DNA from: a bacterium
GTDB taxonomy: Bacteria; Babelota; Babeliae; Babelales; GCA-2401785
Assembly (NCBI GenBank): GCA_023249975.1
Contig: JAHFBP010000001.1
Location: forward strand, 1 to 55,029
Direction of reading: 5' to 3'
Length of the DNA stretch: 55,029 nt
A model generated the notes under the pieces. That model made no database searches and had not been told where the DNA came from. It saw only the letters and a program-made list of their open reading frames with translations. Position 1 is the first letter of the stretch. Each line of letters starts with the position of its first letter. Both the position numbers and the translations under genes were made by a program. Shown in pieces: positions 42,412 through 53,598 of the stretch.

Positions 42412-42816
42412 ATGAAGAAAAAACTTTTACTGATTATCGCCCTTGTTGCTCTTGCTGGAACAACCAAAATTGCCTATGGCAGCTATGGCTCAAAGGGTAA
42501 TGATACCCAAGTTTCATCAACTGATTCTAAAAAATCTGAGATGAAAAAAGAGGTAAAAAAAGAAAAATCGATGAAACATGCATCACACAAAAAATCAAAC
42601 AAGCATGAAGAAATGAGCTTGTGGCAAAAATTTACCAATTGGTTGTTTAGCCCATTCAGCTCAGAAAAATCTTCAAAGTCTGAACGCAAACATGAAAAAA
42701 AGAACAAGTCAGAACACAAGTCAGAACACAAGTCTGAAAAGTCCAAAAAAAATAAAAACAAAAAATCAGAAGTCGAACTTTCAGCTTTTGAGGAAGTGGA
42801 CATGACGGCTGACTAA
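42412..42816 (+). CDS. Exported Lys/Ser/Glu-rich low-complexity protein
   Basis: 134 residues. Signal peptide 1-22 (ending KIAYG). The body is dominated by Lys, Ser, Glu and His, with tandem S-E-H-K units near residues 104-115, one hydrophobic/aromatic patch (MSLWQKFTNWLFSPFS, about 69-84) and an acidic C-terminus. GGAG lies upstream of the ATG. It is followed by a rho-independent terminator, so the 42170 and 42412 genes probably form one transcript. No family recognised. Confidence 0.7.
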   Translation: MKKKLLLIIALVALAGTTKIAYGSYGSKGNDTQVSSTDSKKSEMKKEVKKEKSMKHASHKKSNKHEEMSLWQKFTNWLFSPFSSEKSSKSERKHEKKNKSEHKSEHKSEKSKKNKNKKSEVELSAFEEVDMTAD

Positions 42817-42848
42817 GGCTCAGTCATGCACGTAATAGCTTAATCAAT

Positions 42849-42882
42849 AAGGGTCCTTCCTAAAGAGGGGCCCTTTTCTTTT
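42849..42882 (+). terminator. Rho-independent terminator
   Basis: An 8-bp stem, AAGGGTCC (42849-42856) with GGGCCCTT (42868-42875, one G-T pair), an 11-nt loop, then TTTTCTTTT. It lies 33 bp after the stop of the Lys-rich protein. Confidence 0.88.
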
Positions 42883-42944
42883 ATTTAATTTATGTCTTAC
42901 CGGTAATTAAACACATTTTAAAAAACAACAAAAATATTCACCTA

Positions 42945-42993
42945 CACCCCGCATGCCCTGAGTGTTTTTCGTAGAAAAATGTATCGAAGGGTG
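42945..42993 (+). repeat. Dispersed hairpin repeat, copy 6
   Basis: CACCCCGCATGCCCTGAGTG, inner stem TTTTTC-GTA-GAAAAA (the alternative, covarying pair), TGTATCGAAGGGTG. It is part of an inverted pair with copy 7. The flanking bases ATTCACCTA are also mirrored, so the paired arms extend past the repeat. Confidence 0.88.
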
Positions 42994-43028
42994 TACAAGA
43001 AAATTACTCTTAAGGGCTTACAATAGCG

Positions 43029-43087
43029 ACCCTTCGATACATTTTGTTCGTCCGGAAGCTCACAAAACACTCAGGGCATGCGGGGTG
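43029..43087 (-). repeat. Dispersed hairpin repeat, copy 7
   Basis: ACCCTTCGATACATTTTGT, loop TCGTCCGGAAGCTC, ACAAAACACTCAGGGCATGCGGGGTG. It faces copy 6 across 35 bp; the whole pair spans 42945-43087. Confidence 0.88.
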
Positions 43088-43791
43088 TAGGTGAATATTT
43101 AAAAATTTAAGAAATCTAACTGTTTAATTTTCGGATAAGTTCTTAATCTATGTCCATCTCCAAGGTTACCGTTCTACCGAACGGACGGGCATTAAGAGAG
43201 CCATTGCGCCTCTGACGAATGTCTTTTTTCTGCCTGGCCGGCAAAGGGCTTAAGGTTCGCAAGAGGGCTGGTTGCGCCCTCTTACCATCTCGGCAATTAG
43301 GTAGGCATCCCTAATACCCTCCCGACGCTCAAGTGACTTCGGCATCCGCAGCAAGCTGCTCTGCTCTCGCATTCGAGCTTATGAGGCACCAATAATTTAC
43401 AAATCGATTACGCTTAGTTTCATTCCCCATTTCGTTAAAACTACAAAGGTCACGGCAGGACGAACAGCTCAGTGGTTAGGGATTATTTGTTCCCTGTAAG
43501 CTTCGATTTCCAGACAGAGCAGCTTGCTGCGGTTGCTGAGAAACCGAAGCGTAAAGCGGGTACTCAGGGCGGCAAGCCATGAGTTGCCAGATTATTAAGA
43601 GGGCGCAATGGCTCTCTTAATGCCCGTCCGTTCGGCAGAACGGTACCCTTTAGAAAATGAACGTAGACCAAATTAATTAAAGAAAAAATATAGTTCTTAT
43701 CAAAACAGCAAACCATTGCTTTTTACCCCCTGGCTTTGTTACTAATGGTAATATAGGGCCGTGAATTGATAGCCAGAAAAGGATTTTAATC
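43088..43791. other. Non-coding stretch dominated by a long imperfect palindrome
   Basis: No open frame with a ribosome site or recognisable product. The only structure I see is the palindrome at 43162-43650. The remaining about 140 bp before the ATG at 43792 are AT-rich and should contain that gene's promoter, though no clear hexamer pair stands out. Confidence 0.7.
43162..43650. repeat. Long imperfect palindrome / fold-back element
   Basis: Outer arms 43162-43213 and 43598-43650 are inverted copies of about 52 bp with two mismatches and one gap. Pairing resumes further in: TTGCGCCCTCTT at 43272-43283 again matches the right arm, and CGCAGCAAGCTGCTCTG (43346-43362) pairs with its complement near 43515-43531. 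The left arm has an extra block of about 60 bp that itself contains a hairpin, AAGAGGGC/GCGCCCTCTT (43261-43283). It could be a MITE-like fold-back element or a large structured RNA. No transposase and no evident target-site duplication. Confidence 0.8.
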
Positions 43792-44106
43792 ATGAAAAAA
43801 ATAATGTTACTCATCACCTGCTTGATAACAACTGGCGCAATTCATGCTGCCCCCGCCACCGATCCAAAACCAACCGATTCCACAGCCCCAAAATCTCTAC
43901 CGGTTGCCATTACAGCTGAGGGCAAACCCGTTTACCTCACCGTCATTGAGCAGACACCCCAAGCCCAATCTGGACCTGCTGTCAAACCTCCGGCCACATC
44001 GCCCTACAATATTGGCGGAGTTGAAGACACCCGAGCAGAAACTGAAAAAGTGATGGAAATCATTCAAGAAATGATTCCTGATGCAAAAAAACCAAAGGCT
44101 CGTTAA
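43792..44106 (+). CDS. Small exported Pro-rich protein
   Basis: 104 residues, signal peptide 1-19 (ending IHAA), then a Pro/Thr/Ala-rich region and a short acidic/basic C-terminal helix (ETEKVMEIIQEMIPDAKK). The ribosome site AAGGATTTTAATC matches that used before several other genes in the window. It is 31 bp upstream of the giant coiled-coil gene and likely in the same operon. No family recognised. Confidence 0.7.
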   Translation: MKKIMLLITCLITTGAIHAAPATDPKPTDSTAPKSLPVAITAEGKPVYLTVIEQTPQAQSGPAVKPPATSPYNIGGVEDTRAETEKVMEIIQEMIPDAKKPKAR

Positions 44107-49466: not shown

Positions 49467-50672
49467 TTAGAATATGCCCTTGTGAGAGCCTGCTTCTAAA
49501 TTCTTAACTAACTCCCCCGCCGATTGCCAACTGAGGACCTGAGCCTGCGGCCACGACTGATCTTTGTCTCCCGCATAAATCAAATAACTTTGGACATCTG
49601 GCAGCTCAGCGGCCTTTTTCCAATACATCATGTTGTTAAAAAAATCAGAGGCAATAGTTTGGCCTGATTTGATCTCCACTGGGATGGGATGCTGCGATTG
49701 ATCGATAATGCAATCGACTTCATGACCCACCTTGTCCCGCCAGAAATAAAGACGTGGAGCTTCGTCAATGTTGTAATATTGCTTTAAAATATCCGAAATA
49801 ATCAGTGATTCTACTAAGCCGCCGCGCAAAGAATGCGACGCAACCTCTTCTGCTGAATTAATTTTGAGCAAAGAACACGCAATTCCGGTATCAATAAAAT
49901 AGATTTTAGGCGACTTGATCAGCCGTTTGCCAAAATTATTAAAATACGGATGAAGAGGGAAAATGACGTAGCTTGCCTCAAGAATCGAAATCCATGATTT
50001 GACCGTATTTTGCGTGATTCCACAATCATTTCCCAGCGAAGTTAAATCCACAATTTGCCCGATTCGTCCTGCCAACAGCCGCATAAAGGTCTGAAACTGA
50101 TTGAGATCTGCAACCATTTTGATCGTACGCACATCACGCTCAACATACAATTTGAGGTAATTGGCATATAATCGCTTAATATTGGGATTTTCAGCATGTG
50201 CCTTGGGGTATGACCCCTTGAAAACCAATGCTTCAATTTTTTCTGGTAACAAACCAGCGCCCTTCAATTCACTGATTGAAAGCGGCAAGAGCGTGATAAC
50301 CGCCATTCTTCCTGCCAGGGTCTGAGTAATTGCTTCGTTGACTAAGAAATTTTGTGATCCCGTTACAATAAAAAAACCATGTTTTTTTTCACGATCGGCG
50401 ATGGTTTGGATATATGAAAGTAACTTGGGGGCATGCTGAATTTCATCCAAAATAATGCCGGACTCGCTCGGGTAATCGCCCAAAAAGCGCCGTGGATCGG
50501 CATGTGCCAGTTCACGCACATCATAATCTTCGAGTGAAATGTAAACATGACTCGGAAACAGAGTTTGAGCTAATGTTGTTTTTCCAGACTGCCGAGGCCC
50601 CACAATGGCAACTGCAGGGTACTCAGACGCAGCTTCCATGATCTGATCGGCGATCGTGCGTTTTACCAACAT
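49467..50672 (-). CDS. AAA-type ATPase with DUF4143 C-terminal domain (paralogue 1)
   Basis: A 401-residue protein. Walker A GPRQSGKTT is at about 25-33 and Walker B IILDEIQHAPKLLSYIQ near 75-92. Sensor-like GFFIVTGSQNFL follows, and the C-terminal DUF4143 domain has VEIKSG late in the chain, reminiscent of a nuclease-like fold. The start at 50672 (MLVKRTIAD) has GGGAG 8 nt upstream. Such proteins are widespread and expanded in host-associated bacteria and archaea; the biological role is unclear. It is about as distant from the next two paralogues as family members usually are. Confidence 0.9.
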   Translation of the reverse strand: MLVKRTIADQIMEAASEYPAVAIVGPRQSGKTTLAQTLFPSHVYISLEDYDVRELAHADPRRFLGDYPSESGIILDEIQHAPKLLSYIQTIADREKKHGFFIVTGSQNFLVNEAITQTLAGRMAVITLLPLSISELKGAGLLPEKIEALVFKGSYPKAHAENPNIKRLYANYLKLYVERDVRTIKMVADLNQFQTFMRLLAGRIGQIVDLTSLGNDCGITQNTVKSWISILEASYVIFPLHPYFNNFGKRLIKSPKIYFIDTGIACSLLKINSAEEVASHSLRGGLVESLIISDILKQYYNIDEAPRLYFWRDKVGHEVDCIIDQSQHPIPVEIKSGQTIASDFFNNMMYWKKAAELPDVQSYLIYAGDKDQSWPQAQVLSWQSAGELVKNLEAGSHKGIF

Positions 50673-50778
50673 CTTTAACTCCCTCGAAAACTGGACAATT
50701 TTGCAATTCGATTGCAAATATGTCCAAATTATACCAGGGTTTTCTGATTTTTCACAACAAATTATCTAGAGCATGGCG

Positions 50779-51440
50779 CTACTTAAAATCAACGACATCG
50801 GCAGCATTTTGCCAACTGACCACGTGCCCGTCTGCCGTATCATAATTTTCAAGCCCACCATAGATGAGGTATGATTTTGAATACTCGATCTCGGCCCGAT
50901 CGCACCAATAATGCAGTCCCTTAAAAAAGTCTGAACTCACGGTGTCATTTAACTTAATCTCTATTGGAGCAAGGTTTTTTGATCCGTATCCGTAATTAAA
51001 CAAGCAATCAAGTTCATGCCCTTCGGTGTCGCGCCAAAAATTCATGATATAACCGGGGTTTTTCCCGAGGGTATAAAACTTTTTGTAAAATTCTGAAACA
51101 ATCAGAGTTTCAAACAAATTTCCAACCAAATCGTGATCTGCAAGATCTTCAGCTGATTGAATACCCAAAAGATGGCACGCAAGCCCTGTATCACAAAAAT
51201 ACAATTTATTGGATTTTACGAGCGTTTTTCCATAATTTTGATAATACGGTGGAACTAACACAATGAGGTAACTTGCCTCTAGAATGGTGAGCCACTCATC
51301 CACCTGTTTAACGGTAATTTTGCAATCATTAGCCAATGAATGAGTGTTCAAAAGCTGTCCCGTGCGAAGCGCACACAGCCCCATAAATTTTCGAAATGTA
51401 CGCAGATCAACAAGCTTATCCAATTGATGAACGTCGCGCT
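50779..51440. repeat. Near-identical tract shared with 52210-52871
   Basis: About 650 bp covering the 3' half of paralogue 2 match the 3' half of paralogue 3, with only a handful of substitutions by eye, mostly in the last 60 coding bases. Similarity drops abruptly near 51440/52871. Confidence 0.88.
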
Positions 51441-51999
51441 CAAGATACGTAAAAATATAGTCATCATAAAATATTTCGGGGGTTTCTGTTTTTTGTATGA
51501 CATCAGCATAACCACCGTTAAAAATGACTTCATTCACATTGGGACTCAACAAATTAATGTGTGATAATTCTTTGAGTGAAAGTGGCAGCATTTGAAAAAT
51601 ATGCACCCGCCCTGCCAATGATTGCGTAATATATTGATTCATCAAAAAATTATGCGATCCGGTCAAAATAAAGTAACCAGGTCTACGATTATCATTAAAA
51701 CGATCTTCATCAATAATATAATGTAAATACGATAGAATTTTGGGCTCAAGTTGAAATTCGTCAATTATAATTCCAGGTGCATTATAATCGCGCATCAAAA
51801 AGCCCTCTATGTCCTTACATACCATTTCATAGGTATCACTTTTTTCAAGTGAAAAATAGGCGTGGTCAGGAAAGGTTTCTTTAGCTAAAGTTGTTTTTCC
51901 CGCCTGACGAGGCCCAAGAATCGCAATAATTTGGCTTGATTTGGCTCTTTCTTTAAGTCGCGCCTCATAGCCCCTATGAAGATAATTTTTTTGATCCAC
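50779..51999 (-). CDS. AAA-type ATPase with DUF4143 C-terminal domain (paralogue 2)
   Basis: A 406-residue protein. Walker A GPRQAGKTT at 29-37, IIIDEFQLEPKILSYLHYI as Walker B, YFILTGSHNFLMNQYITQSLAGR, and a C-terminal DUF4143 domain with APIEIKLN. The start is a GTG at 51999, aligned with the ATG of paralogue 3. Residues from about 190 to the end are nearly identical to paralogue 3, while the N-terminal ATPase part has diverged more. This is the signature of gene conversion or a recombinant duplication. Confidence 0.9.
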   Translation of the reverse strand: MDQKNYLHRGYEARLKERAKSSQIIAILGPRQAGKTTLAKETFPDHAYFSLEKSDTYEMVCKDIEGFLMRDYNAPGIIIDEFQLEPKILSYLHYIIDEDRFNDNRRPGYFILTGSHNFLMNQYITQSLAGRVHIFQMLPLSLKELSHINLLSPNVNEVIFNGGYADVIQKTETPEIFYDDYIFTYLERDVHQLDKLVDLRTFRKFMGLCALRTGQLLNTHSLANDCKITVKQVDEWLTILEASYLIVLVPPYYQNYGKTLVKSNKLYFCDTGLACHLLGIQSAEDLADHDLVGNLFETLIVSEFYKKFYTLGKNPGYIMNFWRDTEGHELDCLFNYGYGSKNLAPIEIKLNDTVSSDFFKGLHYWCDRAEIEYSKSYLIYGGLENYDTADGHVVSWQNAADVVDFK

Positions 52000-52209
52000 T
52001 TTAAAACCCCAATTTTTGCTCTTTTTTCCAGGCTTGTTGTCCCCTATTAATCTAGTATGGCGCGCTTGATCCCGAGGCGCAACCCCCGGGCATTAAAACT
52101 CTGGGGAACAATCCCTCCGACAACTTTTAGGGTGTGATTTTGTGCTTCAAAAAATGGGTATGGGACGGGAAAGTAAAAATCAATCAGCAACTAAATCAAG
52201 TGTTTGGCG
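52000..52209. other. Spacer between paralogues 2 and 3
   Basis: No gene. The segment just upstream of paralogue 2 (around 52040-52090, TAGTATGGCGCGCTTGATCC and a following GC-rich stretch) is matched upstream of paralogue 3 (around 53475-53525), so the duplicated unit includes 5' flanking DNA. Confidence 0.65.
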
Positions 52210-52871
52210 CTACTTAAAATCAATGACATCGGCAGCATTTTGCCAACTGACCACGTGCCCACCTGTCGTATCATAATTTTCAAGCCCACCATAGATGAGG
52301 TATGATTTTGAATACTCGATTTCGGCCCGATCGCACCAATAATGCAGTCCCTTAAAAAAGTCTGAACTCACGGTGTCATTTAACTTAATCTCTATTGGAG
52401 CAAGGTTTTTTGATCCGTATCCGTAATTAAACAAGCAATCAAGTTCATGCCCTTCGGTGTCGCGCCAAAAATTCATGATATAACCGGGGTTTTTCCCGAG
52501 GGTATAAAACTTTTTGTAAAATTCTGAAACAATCAGAGTTTCAAACAAATTTCCAACCAAATCGTGATCTGCAAGATCTTCAGCTGATTGAATACCCAAA
52601 AGATGGCACGCAAGCCCTGTATCACAAAAATACAATTTATTGGATTTTACGAGCGTTTTTCCATAATTTTGATAATACGGTGGAACTAACACAATGAGGT
52701 AACTTGCCTCTAGAATGGTGAGCCACTCATCCACCTGTTTAACGGTAATTTTGCAATCATTAGCCAATGAATGAGTGTTCAAAAGCTGTCCCGTGCGAAG
52801 CGCACACAGCCCCATAAATTTTCGAAATGTACGCAGATCAACAAGCTTATCCAACTGATGAACATCACGCT
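52210..52871. repeat. Near-identical tract shared with 50779-51440
   Basis: Partner of the tract in paralogue 2. The few differences change only two or three residues near the C-terminus (TTGG for TADG, VIDFK for VVDFK). Confidence 0.88.
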
Positions 52872-53430
52872 CAAGATACGTATTAACGTAGTTGAAATAA
52901 AATTTTTCGTGAGGCTCTCTCTTTTGTATAATGTTAGCATATCCCCCATTGAATATGACTTCATTTACGTCATTGCTGAGTAAGTTATTGACAGATAATT
53001 CCTTGAGAGAGAGAGGAAGCATTTGAAAAATACGAACACGACCTGCCAATGATTGCGTAATGTATTGATTCATCAAAAAATTATGCGACCCCGTCAAAAT
53101 AAAATAGCCTGGCCTTTCTGTGTCATTAAATCGATGATCGTCAATAATGCCATGCAAATACGATAGGATATCTGGCTCAAGCTGAAATTCATCAATAATG
53201 ATACCGGGTGCATTATGATCTTTAGTTAAAAATGCCTCAATATCTTCACAAATCATTTTTCGTGTTTTTGGTATTTCAAGTGAAAAATAGGCATGATGAG
53301 GAAATGTTTCTTTGGCTAAAGTTGTTTTTCCCGCCTGGCGAGGTCCCATGATGGCAATAATTTCATATATTTCTGCATCTATATTTAATTCTTTTTCATA
53401 GCCCCTATGAAGATAATTTTTCCGATTCAT
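52210..53430 (-). CDS. AAA-type ATPase with DUF4143 C-terminal domain (paralogue 3)
   Basis: 406 residues from the ATG at 53430 (MNRKNYLHRGYEKEL); the frame extends 12 codons further without a ribosome site. Walker A GPRQAGKTT at 29-37, then the same domain order as paralogue 2. The equal lengths, shared N-terminal NYLHRGYE start and common upstream DNA show a tandem duplication. The N-terminal half differs at many positions, including a different run before Walker A, while the C-terminal half is essentially the same protein. Confidence 0.9.
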   Translation of the reverse strand: MNRKNYLHRGYEKELNIDAEIYEIIAIMGPRQAGKTTLAKETFPHHAYFSLEIPKTRKMICEDIEAFLTKDHNAPGIIIDEFQLEPDILSYLHGIIDDHRFNDTERPGYFILTGSHNFLMNQYITQSLAGRVRIFQMLPLSLKELSVNNLLSNDVNEVIFNGGYANIIQKREPHEKFYFNYVNTYLERDVHQLDKLVDLRTFRKFMGLCALRTGQLLNTHSLANDCKITVKQVDEWLTILEASYLIVLVPPYYQNYGKTLVKSNKLYFCDTGLACHLLGIQSAEDLADHDLVGNLFETLIVSEFYKKFYTLGKNPGYIMNFWRDTEGHELDCLFNYGYGSKNLAPIEIKLNDTVSSDFFKGLHYWCDRAEIEYSKSYLIYGGLENYDTTGGHVVSWQNAADVIDFK

Positions 53431-53598
53431 CTTAAAACCCCCATTTTTGTTCTTTTTTCCAGGCAAAACTGCACTTATTAACCTAGTATGGCGTGCCTGA
53501 TCCCGAGGTGCAACTCTCGGGCAACTTTCATCAAGCTATTTCCTTGTTTAATATTTACAGACTGAATTATACTGATAATTAGATGGGAGGCTTTTTAG

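Follow-up and report, generated by a model that had tools for sequence, protein, structure and literature searches.

A palindrome in a Dependentiae genome is probably a degenerate copy of a fold-back mobile-element family with structured ends

As a rule, the palindromic repeats of bacteria are short, and their sequence is what defines them. In the NEMIS, ERIC and YPAL repeats, each repeat forms one stem-loop and the copies are similar in sequence. The Dependentiae (Babeliales) are streamlined intracellular parasites. In the genome report of Babela massiliensis, just one IS4 transposase gene is named, and palindromic repeats go unmentioned (PMC4378268). Among the described systems, NEMIS, ERIC and YPAL are intergenic palindromes of 100–200 bp folding as RNA (PMC2267715), repetitive extragenic palindromes (REPs) are 20–40 bp long and carry a GTAG/CGTC tag (PMC3733652), and miniature inverted-repeat transposable elements (MITEs) have the sequence-conserved ends of insertion sequences (IS) with direct repeats (PMC10969869). 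The subject of this study is an imperfect palindrome at positions 43162–43650 of a 55,029-nt stretch (the window), which is part of contig C17 (JAHFBP010000001.1) of a 1.09-Mb Dependentiae assembly (GCA_023249975.1, coded G000). It is probably a partly degenerate copy of a non-coding, non-autonomous family of fold-back mobile elements with structured ends, dispersed in the Dependentiae.

The palindrome had been noticed from the letters of the window (referred to as the sequence-only reading), which described near-perfect outer arms, pairing blocks further inward and a kilobase without genes. Measurement bore this out. The outer arms (43162–43210 and 43602–43650) are 49 nt long, 96% complementary and separated by 391 nt, the inner arms (43339–43363 and 43515–43539) comprise 25 nt with 92% complementarity, and a further pair (43272–43284 and 43596–43608) comprises 13 nt with 100%. 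When the left half was aligned, gaps being allowed, to the reverse-complemented right half, the score was 144 (best of 200 shuffles 32.5), and the pairing extends beyond the outer arms to cover most of approximately 43146–43668. The folding z-scores were −12.2 and −16.4, with energies far below those of shuffled sequences. The intergenic gap measures 975 bp (42817–43791) and is flanked by genes for small exported proteins (42412–42816 and 43792–44106). Genome size, gene content and a setting rich in secreted proteins point to the Dependentiae (Babeliales) as the group to which the genome belongs.

Each arm is a copy of the same structured unit, and both copies face outward. Reading outward, a unit consists of a variable 5' domain, hairpin H2, a spacer near AGATT, hairpin H3 with the loop GACAAG, the tip hairpin H4, which is outermost, and an A-rich tail. 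Units were sought with two covariance models, R1 for the 3' part (H2, H3 and H4), built from four loci, and R2, rebuilt from 41 units. The following parts were assigned in the window copy.

43146–43668, no strand: whole fold-back element with approximate limits, including the A/T-rich outer tails (gapped arm alignment; BLAST of the arms 43147–43210 and 43602–43667).
43162–43212, minus strand: outer left tip, an additional H3-H4 module almost identical to the tip on the right (arm alignments; R1 match at 43169–43212).
43225–43323, minus strand: left structured unit, the inner diverged copy, left-facing (R1 E-value 1.4e-9, the unit being in the training set; R2 8.7e-7).
43397–43480, no strand: central spacer between both units with the hairpin-like string CCATTTCGTTAAAACTACAAAGG (short match in genome G099).
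43500–43550, plus strand: variable 5' hairpin domain of the right unit, GCTTCG...CGAAGC (fold; comparison of upstream domains).
43554–43647, plus strand: 3' part (H2-H3-H4) of the right structured unit, the best match of the family model (R1 E-value 1.2e-24, R1 being built partly from this unit; R2 3.7e-20).
43562–43584, plus strand: hairpin H2 of the right unit (structure prediction).
43594–43621, plus strand: hairpin H3 of the right unit with the loop GCAATG in place of the family loop GACAAG (fold and family alignments).
43628–43643, plus strand: tip hairpin H4 of the right unit, CCGTTC/GAACGG (fold and family alignment).

Read on the minus strand, the left arm begins with the diverged unit copy (TATTAGG..CCTAAT, then AAGAGGGC-GCAACCA-GCCCTCTT), followed by the near-identical copy of the right tip. 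These two tip modules account for the additional hairpin (about 60 bp) of the left arm, which the sequence-only reading had correctly seen. This composition suggests that an inverted pair of units came first and that one tip was recently copied across to the opposite side, giving the near-perfect outer arms. In genome G085, H4 of some elements (L111, L112) contains a nested hairpin insert, CCGCCGTCGCTCTACGAGCTATGTCGAGG, which resembles the additional left tip in type.

Both searches proposed along with the sequence-only reading, BLASTN with the arms and a covariance model from homologues, returned further copies. In the same genome, the right arm is found once more (C10:15756–15820, 95%) and the arm tip at C19:75743–75785, while the H3 hairpin was matched at 84% in G092, another genome of the order. 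Folded side by side, the loci of the window, C10/C19 and G092 have one architecture with differing stem letters. Both models were searched in 101 genomes of the phylum. R1 matched ten times each in G092 and G085, five times each in G091 and G093, four times in G079, and in others. R2 matched in 34 genomes with up to 22 units per genome, and 67 genomes were without any match; among the R2 matches listed, about 150 have E-values, which are rough, near 1e-6 or better. Sequence search is too weak for the detection of this family: a scan of 85k species and viral contigs with the exact H3-motif pattern returned one contig only (apparently C7 of G092) and no viral one. The scan of the window against Rfam at gathering thresholds gave tRNAs only, and permissive scans of single loci gave sub-threshold hairpin noise only, so that one large known RNA was rejected. 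Plasmid or phage origin was also rejected, as distant BLAST searches with the window palindrome (plasmids and phages) and with a G085 element (plasmids) found no match. The family is apparently undescribed so far.

Compensatory changes support one fold throughout the family. In an alignment of 49 units, 92.1% of the pair cells are standard pairs compared to 63.2% with shuffled partners, and all 25 pairs show changes on both sides. In 15 genomes outside the training set the corresponding values are 93.3% and 59.0%; double changes were counted in 209 cells, and the covariation score reached 0.798 (0.211 ± 0.017 for the control). The H3 loop usually has 6 nt close to GACAAG. An internal loop GGATTC/GTGTCC in H2 is common to many units, and some have a 5' domain beginning with CYGRTA and carrying a CGAA/GTGT internal loop. 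Among the non-Watson-Crick pairs of H3, G.T (34) is far more frequent than A.C (5), which indicates that the outward-reading strand is the one that folds and is under selection. This wobble bias would fit folded RNA and folded single-stranded DNA alike.

The units occur in a fixed arrangement. Of 33 neighbouring pairs within 1 kb, 32 have the order minus, plus, with starts 229–779 nt apart (p ~1e-18 under random orientation, assuming independence and ignoring relatedness). The same arrangement is present in ten other, separately assembled genomes. The elements are roughly 0.3–0.9 kb long, end in A-rich tails and are intergenic in both orientations, some of them between divergent genes; they have no open reading frame and no neighbour gene in common. 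In G085, each element has one A' end and one B' end, and the alignment places A' on the left in some elements and on the right in others.

Filled and empty sites were found at two orthologous junctions. At the prfA junction, G092 carries an element of approximately 360 nt, and in the congeneric G094 the same two genes lie about 100 bp apart without one. At the grpE junction, an element of approximately 790 nt is located between convergent genes in G092, and in the congeneric G093 these two genes are separated by 62 bp that contain an intrinsic terminator and no unit. Gain is the simpler explanation for these differences because the elements are dispersed at many unrelated places.

Dispersal in multiple copies, pairing, occurrence in both orientations and presence or absence at the same junctions are the properties on which the assignment to a family of fold-back mobile elements is based. 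The outward, 3'-ending strand would fold at each end, as RNA or as single-stranded DNA, and a trans-acting recombinase or transposase would recognise the folded strand at both ends and move the element. The window copy would have decayed, its left tip having been overwritten or duplicated from the right one. Of the two proposals in the sequence-only reading, the fold-back mobile element holds with the amendment that the ends are unlike those of a simple MITE, because what they conserve, through compensatory changes, is the secondary structure and not the sequence. The other proposal, a large structured RNA, applies to each arm, which is a structured unit on its own strand, but not to the 490 nt as one RNA. 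The check for several copies with target-site duplications had a mixed outcome: multiple copies exist, while duplications are unreadable in the A/T-rich flanks. That paired mutations maintain the fold of the ends suggests a role of the folded strand, be it RNA or single-stranded DNA, in the spread or action of the elements. We tentatively propose, as a possibility still short of likely, that the family represents a new class of mobile elements in which an outward-reading structured RNA or single-stranded DNA at both ends takes part in transposition, mobilised by some enzyme in these intracellular parasitic bacteria; the end fold might, for example, be the recognised form or a guide running into the flanking DNA.

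Several points weigh against mobility of this kind. Fitting A3 and A6, the unit alignments, to the models biases them towards the structure and raises the pairing values, although slid controls still drop to approximately 25–51%, and copies inside one genome are related and thus non-independent. Besides this pair, just a single unit on C10 and a tip fragment on C19 were found in the window's genome. Presence and absence at each junction could also stem from deletion, and at the filled and empty prfA and grpE sites no target-site duplication was readable in the A/T-rich, diverged flanks. No gene responsible for mobilisation was found: Y1_Tnp is encoded in 36 of the 101 genomes, including the carriers G092, G093, G091 and G067, but is absent from the window's genome G000 and from the carriers G085, G079, G094 and G088, and IS110 genes were found in only three of 19 carriers tested, four such genes in all.

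Part of the evidence would also suit a chromosomal pair of regulatory RNAs or a bidirectional 3'-end element, in which the units serve as terminators, RNA stabilisers or processing sites similar to BIMEs or NEMIS. Their transcription would start inside the element and run towards its ends, or reach them from neighbouring genes by read-through, and spread would be a by-product. This explanation agrees with the strong covariation of RNA type, in which G-U pairs are tolerated on one strand, with the intergenic position, often directly after a gene, and with the intrinsic terminator that takes the element's place at the grpE junction of the empty species. However, elements lie between divergent genes as well, no neighbour gene is conserved, most copies have an A-rich tail and no T-run after H4, and the conserved 5' motif CYGRTA occurs in only 17 of 98 units (5 expected), so that no promoter is anchored; a regulatory role of this type is therefore considered unlikely. 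A bidirectional promoter in the spacer was rejected on the same count, and by eye there was no fixed −10 motif before CYGRTA. Still lower is our estimate for an ordinary IS-derived MITE or REPIN, whose conventional DDE or Y1 transposase recognises double-stranded arms or REP hairpins. Inverted ends, lack of an open reading frame, dispersal and the presence of Y1_Tnp in some carriers are compatible with it, and MITE transcripts generally form stable stem-loops (PMC10969869). On the other hand, it is structure rather than sequence that is conserved across genera, which is unnecessary for a transposase binding double-stranded DNA, several carriers are without Y1_Tnp, and units of more than 90 nt with several hairpins differ from REPs of 20–40 bp (PMC3733652). 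An inverted duplication unique to the window contig, made by chance or by assembly, could be suspected from the nearly identical 49-nt outer arms and the merely partial copies elsewhere in the genome, but it is refuted by the recurrence of the arrangement in the ten separately assembled genomes and has a negligible probability.

Two mobilising systems were rejected for the fold-back elements. Mobilisation by Y1/RAYT is contradicted by the missing gene in the window's genome and by the lack of consistent co-occurrence across the phylum. Two of the four IS110-family transposase genes lie between paired units (L156, G091:C60:700–3124; L155, G067:C5:300–4700), but they do not appear to be the autonomous form, given their rarity among carriers and the position of the G091 copy, which cuts a unit's 5' domain in two (...GTGTGGCCGACTT|IS|CGCGACGAGAG...); because of this interruption, the unit is regarded as the target of the IS. 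The use of REPs as targets by IS elements of other bacteria is described in an earlier report (PMC1525189). A third IS110 copy (L174 in G085), located in a different repeat, starts with a similar end, GTATGTTAAA. No parent IS sharing the element ends was found, DDE families not being included in the search.

The inventory of the gap in the sequence-only reading was right for the main palindrome but overlooked a second, shorter one.

42932–43100, no strand: separate palindrome, an inverted pair of a REP-like unit of about 45 bp dispersed over the genome (arm detection; genome search).

It has perfect arms of 37 and 17 bp and imperfect outer arms reaching to 42896–43139. Its REP-like units (CACCCCGCATGCCCTGAGTGTTTTTCGTAGAAAAATGTATCGAAGGGT) have about 100 arm matches at several dozen places of the genome, and matches in seven of 31 relatives; despite this dispersal, a search of the genome revealed no gene for Y1_Tnp. 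The pair is framed by an imperfect inverted repeat, CTTATCCGAAAATTAAACA, at 42896–42913 and 43121–43139, and a string close to GAACTTATCCGAAAATTAA recurs at unrelated sites within G000 and in two further genomes of this order (L009, L042, L043). Copies of the pair at C12:1518, C19:75469, C20:10865, C20:25698 and C10:16125 of G000 are framed by TTAGGTTCTGTTGAGTTTTT and/or its reverse complement AAAAACTCAACAGAACCTAA, and these frames look like IS-type ends with a YTAR-like target. Elsewhere in the window, three tandem ATPase genes (49467–53466, DUF4143-like by eye) adjoin exported-protein genes; in two of them the C-terminal halves are nearly identical.

The fold-back family is thus gene-free and spread across many families of one phylum, with a fold kept by compensatory change at both ends, from which it follows that the folded strand must be under selection. 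The conserved fold provides a concrete structured target in the hunt for the mobilising enzyme. With MITEs, the elements share terminal inverted repeats, dispersal, intergenic position, the ability to fold, the lack of coding capacity and a length under about 1 kb, but their ends are units of 90–200 nt conserved by compensatory change, and neither a parent IS nor a target-site duplication was found. REPs, REPINs and BIMEs with their Y1 transposase RAYT are likewise hairpin units in inverted pairs between genes, and REPs are recognised as folded single strands. Instead of a tagged hairpin of 20–40 bp paired head to head, however, the units described here measure about 90 nt (H2–H4) plus the 5' domain, contain at least three hairpins and start 0.2–0.8 kb apart, and the window's genome and several other carriers lack a cognate RAYT. 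The bridge RNA of IS110, an RNA-guided transposase system, is also a structured non-coding unit linked to mobility, and IS110 genes are found between unit pairs in G067 and G091; in contrast, the IS in G091 interrupts a unit in a manner pointing to target use, and most carriers have no IS110 genes. NEMIS, ERIC and YPAL are similar in being palindromic and intergenic with RNA-like folding, while the family described here has two outward structured ends and is held together across the phylum by structure.
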